NCBI GenBank assembly: GCA_902572945.1 | Contig: CACGHU010000004.1 | Location: 1-45,128, forward strand | Source of the DNA: an uncultured Pelagibacteraceae bacterium | GTDB taxonomy: Bacteria; Pseudomonadota; Alphaproteobacteria; Pelagibacterales; Pelagibacteraceae | Direction of reading: 5' to 3' | DNA: 45,128 bases | Shown here: in pieces, positions 36,604 through 37,739 of the stretch | Numbering within the stretch: the first letter of the stretch is position 1 | Layout: every line of letters starts with the position of its first letter | Position numbers and translations under genes: made by a program | The notes under the pieces: model-generated | Database searches by the model: none | Told to the model about the DNA's origin: nothing | What the model saw: only the letters and a program-made list of their open reading frames with translations

Positions 36604-36828
36604 ATGAAAAAAGGCATACATCCAAATTACCATAAAATCAAAGTTGAGATGACTGATGGTACACAATTTGATACAAAATCAACATGGGGGAAAGAGGGAG
36701 AGATTCTTAAGTTGGAAATTGATCCTAAATCTCATTCAGCATGGACAGGTGGTAAGCAAAAGTTATTGGATAAAGGAAGAGTAAGTAAATTTAATAAAAA
36801 ATTTCAAAATTTTAGATCAGAAAAATAA
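36604..36828 (+). CDS. rpmE: 50S ribosomal protein L31
   Basis: Ribosomal protein of the large-subunit central protuberance, bridging to the small subunit. The 74-aa sequence matches the alphaproteobacterial form: [20 protein letters not shown] at the start, [16 protein letters not shown] in the middle and [25 protein letters not shown] at the end. It has no cysteines, so it is the zinc-free type. The stop shares one base with the start of the DUF1013/TrcR gene (TAATG), so the two are coupled. Confidence 0.97.
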
Positions 36829-37409
36829 TGACTAATGGACTTTTAATGCCAATAGCAACTGCTGTTTGGTTAGTAGAAAATACAACACTTACTTTCAAAC
36901 AAATTGCAAATTTTTGTAATTTGCATGAAGTTGAAGTTCAAGGTATTGCAGATGGTGAAGTTGCAAAAGGAATTAAACCATATAATCCAATAATTTCTGG
37001 CCAACTAACAAGGGAAGAAATTAATTTATCTTCAAAAGATGAAAGCAGACCACTACAAATAAAAGGTACAGATATTAAAATTGAGGCAGAAGATAAAAAA
37101 ATAAAAAAATATGTTCCTTTATCAAAAAGACAGGATAAGCCAGACTCTGCACTTTGGTTGATTAAGCATCATCCGCAGTTAAAGGACTCACAAATTGCGA
37201 AATTAGTGGGAGTGACAAAAAACTCTGTCACATCGATAAGGAATAAAAGCTACTGGAACTATAATAATTTGAATTCAAAAGATCCTGTTGCTATGAATTT
37301 ATTTACACAAAAAGATTTGGTTTTAGCCATAGAAAAAGCTGAAAGAAGAATTAAAAGAGAAAAAAAAGAAAAAGAAAAGGCAAATCTGTCAGCATCACAA
37401 GGATCATAA
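36828..37409 (+). CDS. trcR: Cell-cycle transcriptional regulator TrcR (DUF1013)
   Basis: A 193-aa protein of the DUF1013 family, found in alphaproteobacteria and described there (Brucella, Caulobacter) as TrcR, a DNA-binding regulator tied to the cell cycle and to CtrA expression. The N-terminal part is [44 protein letters not shown], a helix-turn-helix-like pattern near 20-40. A second such pattern, DSQIAKLVGVTKNSVTSIRNKSYWN, lies near 119-143. The C-terminal tail is a charged helix. It shares one base with rpmE. About 20 bases after the stop lies the intrinsic-terminator-like hairpin before rpsU. Confidence 0.92.
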   Translation: MTNGLLMPIATAVWLVENTTLTFKQIANFCNLHEVEVQGIADGEVAKGIKPYNPIISGQLTREEINLSSKDESRPLQIKGTDIKIEAEDKKIKKYVPLSKRQDKPDSALWLIKHHPQLKDSQIAKLVGVTKNSVTSIRNKSYWNYNNLNSKDPVAMNLFTQKDLVLAIEKAERRIKREKKEKEKANLSASQGS

Positions 37410-37429
37410 AGTGTAGACAAAAAAAAATT

Positions 37430-37454
37430 AAAGTGGTAATACATCACTTTTTTT
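37430..37454 (+). terminator. Intrinsic-terminator-like hairpin directly upstream of the rpsU ribosome site
   Basis: AAAGTGGT (37430-37437) pairs with ATCACTTT (37443-37450) around the five-base loop AATAC; seven Watson-Crick pairs and one G-T wobble. It is followed by TTTT, and a preceding A run can lengthen the stem with the T tract. The T tract runs straight into the GGAGG of rpsU. It could end the rpmE-trcR message, or act as an attenuator or a structure limiting ribosome access for rpsU. Confidence 0.7.
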
Positions 37455-37459
37455 GGAGG
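37455..37459 (+). promoter_or_regulatory. Strong Shine-Dalgarno of rpsU, deciding an AUU start
   Basis: GGAGG is an unusually strong ribosome site for this genome, where most genes lack one. It lies five bases before ATT at 37465. The track's TTG start at 37453 would overlap this site and so is unlikely. Confidence 0.75.
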
Positions 37460-37464
37460 TGGTT

Positions 37465-37659
37465 ATTAAAATAGAAGTTAAAGATAATAATGTTGAACAA
37501 GCTTTAAGAGTTTTGAAAAGAAAGCTTCAACGAGATGGTTTTTTTAAAATCATCAAATTAAAAGATACGTACGAAAAACCTTCGGAAAAAAAGAAGAGAA
37601 TTTTACAAGAAAATATTAAGAGAGTAAAAAAATTAAATAAACTCAAAAACAGATTTTAA
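37465..37659 (+). CDS. rpsU: 30S ribosomal protein S21 with probable AUU start
   Basis: Small-subunit protein near the anti-Shine-Dalgarno region, needed for efficient initiation. The body, VKDNNVEQALRVLKRKLQRDGFF then KLKDTYEKPSEKKKR, is plainly S21. The usual alphaproteobacterial N-terminus is M-Q-V-V-V-R-D-N-N-V; the frame here gives I-K-I-E-V-K-D-N-N-V with the same spacing, so ATT at 37465 stands where the initiator Met is expected, five bases after GGAGG. No ATG or GTG lies in a fitting place: GTG (37459) and TTG (37453) are inside the Shine-Dalgarno. The protein is 64 aa from this start. Initiator tRNA follows three bases after the stop. Confidence 0.93.
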   Translation: MKIEVKDNNVEQALRVLKRKLQRDGFFKIIKLKDTYEKPSEKKKRILQENIKRVKKLNKLKNRF

Positions 37660-37662
37660 CAA

Positions 37663-37739
<77 letters not shown>

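Follow-up and report, generated by a model that had tools for sequence, protein, structure and literature searches.

A near-cognate AUU start codon paired with an extended Shine-Dalgarno sequence in rpsU of SAR11 bacteria, a possible regulatory device

In E. coli, infC (encoding IF3) starts with AUU and is autocontrolled via IF3, and pcnB likewise has an AUU start; the autocontrol of infC is reportedly lost once the AUU is removed, in work from 1987 by Butler et al. A separate line of work concerns strong Shine-Dalgarno (SD) sequences: in Flavobacterium johnsoniae, ribosomes without bS21 prefer the strong-SD rpsU mRNA, on which they assemble 30S complexes without IF3 (PMC9976891). Extended SDs drive initiation at the AUA of infC, the AUU of cvfC1 and the AUA of ccpN in S. 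aureus, and bS21 has been argued to hinder the extended SD helix (PMC13009471). The components are known singly (AUU in infC and pcnB; strong-SD rpsU in Bacteroidota), and in the open-access literature searched we found neither a description of rpsU with an AUU or other non-AUG start nor one of the combination of AUU and strong SD in this gene, its spread and its swap.

Here, we describe rpsU on a window of 45,128 nucleotides from an uncultured Pelagibacteraceae bacterium (contig CACGHU010000004.1 of an incomplete draft genome, 55% complete), and compare it with rpsU across Pelagibacterales (SAR11) and other Alphaproteobacteria. Our overall explanation, with a probability of roughly 0.8, is that SAR11 rpsU has a near-cognate start coupled to an extended SD, as the comparison indicates, and that the pair would serve as a regulatory device. 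Like infC and pcnB of E. coli, SAR11 rpsU is a translation-related gene with a near-cognate AUU initiator; unlike infC, it is a different gene, in which the near-cognate codon goes together with an exceptional SD and with a leader predicted to be very short. With rpsU of F. johnsoniae and other Bacteroidota it shares the gene, an extended SD of apparently exceptional strength, the short leader and, as suggested for SAR11, bS21-less ribosomes as the proposed sensor, whereas the passages of PMC9976891 consulted report no near-cognate rpsU start for Bacteroidota, which are a different phylum. The S. aureus genes also combine an extended SD with an AUU or AUA start that is conserved among relatives; they are different genes, however, and bS21 density near the SD helix is absent there, whereas bS21 is the very product of the SAR11 gene (PMC13009471).

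The product was identified as S21 by profile search against PF01165 (57.8 bits, E 8.8e-16, cut-off 27) and TIGR00030 (53.3 bits, cut-off 28.95), and passing these curated cut-offs places it in the ribosomal protein bS21 family. Listed matches among solved structures are uninformative on the N-terminus of SAR11 S21. The gene lies between trcR and an initiator-type tRNA-Met, and its 5' region reads TTTTTTTGGAGGTGGTT ATT AAA ATA GAA GTT AAA GAT AAT AAT. The features are collected in Table 1.

Table 1. Coordinates in the window of rpsU, its putative start signals and its neighbours
Feature	Position	Strand	Basis or remark
trcR, 5' neighbour of rpsU	36828..37409		
Predicted -35 element TAGACA	37414..37419	+	T[A/T]GACA conserved; sequence prediction
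Predicted extended -10 (TGG-TAATAC)	37434..37442	+	17 nt past the -35; predicts a leader of roughly 15 nt
TTG chosen by ORF callers, rejected as start	37453..37455	+	Lies partly within the SD and lacks one itself; relatives have a stop, CTG or another codon here
SD GGAGG (37455-37459) extended by TGGTT	37455..37464	+	Can pair over as many as 10 nt with the congeneric 16S tail GGAUUACCUCC
AUU start codon of rpsU	37465..37467	+	Cross-genome comparison
rpsU coding sequence (64 aa, (M)KIEVKDNN...; bS21)	37465..37659	+	PF01165 and TIGR00030 matches
Initiator-type tRNA-Met (CAT, C1/A72 ends)	37663..37739	+	3 nt past the rpsU stop; linkage kept in the family

No usable AUG, GUG or UUG start is present in the rpsU of the window, and the ATT stands five bases past GGAGG. 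Among the 297 Pelagibacterales genomes searched, rpsU was detected in 268, about 224 of them in the family of the window. At the homologous start codon, 214 genomes of this family have ATT or, rarely, ATC, and eight more have ATG at exactly the same position, which together make up nearly all of its rpsU-bearing genomes; in the named records, uncultured Pelagibacteraceae together with Candidatus Pelagibacter ubique, it is ATT in 79/80 and ATC in 1/80. In 22 of the 112 unique family leaders, the stretch from the in-frame stop to the ATT holds no ATG, GTG or TTG, and two genera have GGAGG TAG GTT ATT as their leader, with TAG two codons ahead of the ATT. The sister family has ATA in 10/10 loci (GGAGGGCAGAACA-ATA-GTT-GAA or close variants), with the SD eight bases 5' of the ATA and no canonical start. 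A near-cognate start is near-certain because relatives carry ATG at the same codon, in-frame stops lie upstream and the sister family uses ATA; SAR11 rpsU almost certainly starts at AUU (AUA in the sister family), not at an upstream UUG or GUG. The original prediction of an AUU start is strongly supported on these three counts, and an ATG or GTG at a different fixed position in relatives, named beforehand as the finding that would speak against it, did not turn up. With a conserved codon and no alternative canonical start, rpsU appears to belong to the class of near-cognate-start genes of the infC and pcnB type. Separately, two SAR11 genomes have one additional T in a poly-T run of rpsU that shifts the frame; the probable cause is an error in sequencing the homopolymer.

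Translation from the in-frame TTG at 37453 or GTG at 37459, which would yield (M)EVVIKIEV... and make the ATT an internal isoleucine codon, is highly improbable. A TTG does stand four codons 5' of the ATT in 86/112 unique leaders, but it is a product of the T-run followed by GGAGG, it overlaps the SD (as had been pointed out for the TTG of the ORF track, and as the coordinates confirm) and has none of its own, it lies only a few nucleotides past the predicted 5' end of the transcript, and in many relatives it is missing or separated by a stop. In eight genomes, moreover, ATG occupies the ATT codon. ATA, found at about 40% of the gene's other isoleucine codons, occurs at the start codon in 0/112 unique leaders, a weak point against an internal isoleucine since codon 3 of rpsU is itself ATA-biased. 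Chance, sequencing error or a meaningless relic would be conceivable for a single incomplete draft, but this reading is refuted by conservation, the identical arrangement being present in >200 independently sequenced genomes, and its probability is negligible; because the SD and ATT are kept across the order, their arrangement is not due to chance.

The predicted promoter lies at a constant distance from the gene. Of 112 unique family leaders, 95 carry the -35 motif T[A/T]GACA, mostly beginning 50 nt 5' of the start codon, and TGNTAN follows at fixed spacing in all 95; such a promoter predicts a leader of roughly 15 nt. A leader this short would put the TTG almost at the 5' end and makes an upstream structured regulator unlikely; a structured leader or riboswitch was likewise rejected on the Rfam search, in which no match fell in the leader (the tRNA alone passed).

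Pairing of the SD was computed with the 16S tail of congeners, 16S rRNA not having been found in this draft genome. The congeneric tail (GGATTACCTCCTTTCT) and the commonest rpsU leader (GGAGGTAGTT) are able to pair over ten bases. In the window, the rpsU leader has a predicted pairing energy between -12.0 and -14.5 kcal/mol, varying with the anti-SD stretch used, while the runner-up among the 48 other genes reaches -10.3, so rpsU ranks first among 49 and the claim that its SD is the strongest in the window holds. In a complete congener (duplexfold), the rpsU SD reaches -14.9 kcal/mol with a 16-nt tail (rank 1 of about 1,283 genes), -12.4 with a 13-nt tail (rank 10 of 1,297) and -10.6 with an 11-nt tail (rank 21 of about 1,290); the SDs of most genes there are weak, with a median near -3 to -4 kcal/mol. 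These ranks are conservative because the starts of the other genes were picked to favour strong SDs. Genome-wide, the rpsU SD is exceptional, yet its status as single strongest is not robust, since the rank varies with tail length. For bS21 autoregulation of the Bacteroidota type (PMC9976891), the rpsU SD would have to stand out from all other genes with pairing below -13 kcal/mol; our energies come from duplexfold, not from the program used there. Across 600 kb of a sister-family genome, the rpsU SD comes 4th or 10th among about 627. SAR11 genera differ in the base adjoining the anti-SD: three have GGATTACCTCC and two others GGATCACCTCC. The idea that the SD covaries with this U/C change in 16S was considered and rejected: genera carry GGATTACC or GGATCACC, but their leaders do not covary cleanly.

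Start codon and SD change together. All eight ATG genomes lack an SD (+1.4 to -2.4 kcal/mol, versus a mean of -11.8 for ATT/ATC leaders), and neither intermediate, ATG with an SD or ATT without one, was found among the leaders inspected. This natural swap shows the two elements behaving jointly, weak codon and strong SD apparently forming one module, and it is compatible with both feedback control and simple tuning. On a tree of the upstream flank the eight genomes fall into two clades (6 + 2), a result with which the downstream-flank tree conflicts, so the type with ATG and no SD may have arisen once or twice. Since these genomes survive without the device, any regulation would be dispensable.

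Beyond SAR11, 91 alphaproteobacterial rpsU loci were anchored, and their start regions have as last canonical codon GTG in 40, TTG in 25 and ATG in 18; the remaining eight lack all three, most having only ATA, ATC or ATT there. As controls, rpsO of the same alphaproteobacteria starts with ATG in 27/27 scored cases, and rpsU outside the class does so in 19/20. Fisher tests on the avoidance of AUG gave 5e-15 and 2e-10, values that relatedness among the genomes makes too strong. The shunning of AUG by rpsU thus looks like a trait of the whole class with SAR11 as its extreme; this and the joint switch of codon and SD go beyond the original prediction. The infC start is GTG in the genus of the window and three other SAR11 genera, ATT in two and ATA in the sister family, and in other Alphaproteobacteria it is mostly ATA or ATC; ATG also occurs among infC starts of SAR11 genera. 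Generally relaxed start usage was rejected: a scan of a complete congener for coding sequence upstream of any canonical start, blind to short N-terminal differences, gave no other convincing cases.

The following mechanism is proposed. The extended SD on a very short leader would dock the 30S subunit, making initiation at a near-cognate codon possible, and the combination of a strong SD with a codon rejected during normal, IF3-checked initiation would tie S21 synthesis to the state of the 30S subunit. Subunits without bS21, their anti-SD free and less dependent on IF3, would be favoured, which would give homeostatic control of S21. We infer such a switch from the precedents of infC and IF3, of Flavobacterium bS21 and of the extended SDs of S. 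aureus. The role that we consider most likely is translational homeostasis, with S21 supply governed by the state of the 30S subunit (stringency of IF3 and/or access to the anti-SD), and feedback control as the purpose of the pair is held tentatively, at a little under even odds. A wider proposal, in which non-AUG starts make rpsU an alphaproteobacterial control point and AUU or AUA with the extended SD would let bS21-deficient, less IF3-stringent 30S subunits make bS21 in SAR11, is rather doubtful. If true, it would amount to a two-input autoregulatory switch (anti-SD access and start-codon fidelity) within about 20 nucleotides, lost as a unit in some strains.

Constitutive tuning would explain the same pair without feedback: AUU cuts yield, the strong SD restores it and S21 is held at a fixed level, AUU with a strong SD and AUG with no SD being two equivalent settings. 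The eight AUG genomes, having exchanged codon and SD together, behave as they should were codon strength times SD strength all that counts, and the weakness of most congener SDs also suits this reading, to which we give somewhat less than an even chance; this weight and that on feedback are rough judgements. Tuning accounts less well for the persistence of the harder-to-keep pair in about 96% of the family when a single base turns AUU into AUG, or for the recurrence of AUH or GUG/UUG solutions across the class, where neutral equivalence would be expected to drift to AUG more often. Control by IF3 or initiation capacity, raised in the original prediction, is plausible by analogy with infC. In its infC-like form IF3 rejects the AUU, and S21 output reports the level of IF3 or a surplus of 30S subunits, independently of bS21; this IF3-only reading, which overlaps with feedback control, is unlikely. 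AUH codons are the near-cognate class that IF3 checks in infC of E. coli, and infC itself has AUU or AUA in some SAR11 genera and AUA or AUC in many Alphaproteobacteria. Against it, infC starts with GUG in the genus of the window, so an AUU regime shared with IF3 is not general, and rpsU has GUG or UUG in many Alphaproteobacteria, codons not subject to the same rejection by IF3 as AUH.

SAR11 is among the most abundant bacterial groups, and gene callers limited to ATG, GTG and TTG will give S21 a false N-terminus there or miss it. An AUU kept in hundreds of genomes, with the SD dropped where AUG appears, offers a natural test of the trade-off between SD strength, start-codon fidelity and 30S composition, and SAR11 rpsU joins two ideas so far separate, the control of infC through IF3 and AUU and the control of strong-SD rpsU through bS21. 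Phage S21 genes were considered as users of the AUU device and rejected, as they start with ATG or TTG and never AUH (HTVC008M is annotated with ATG); AUU or AUA occurs in none, and many in marine phages have a TTG start behind GGAGGTAA, followed by an in-frame stop. Directly 3' of rpsU, ARAGORN matched a tRNA-Met of initiator type in 123/138 Pelagibacterales loci, the gap from the rpsU stop being 2-7 nt in the genus of the window and larger in other genera. The anticodon stem of this tRNA opens with A-U, not G-C, in the initiator-typical stretch of three pairs (AGG/CCU).
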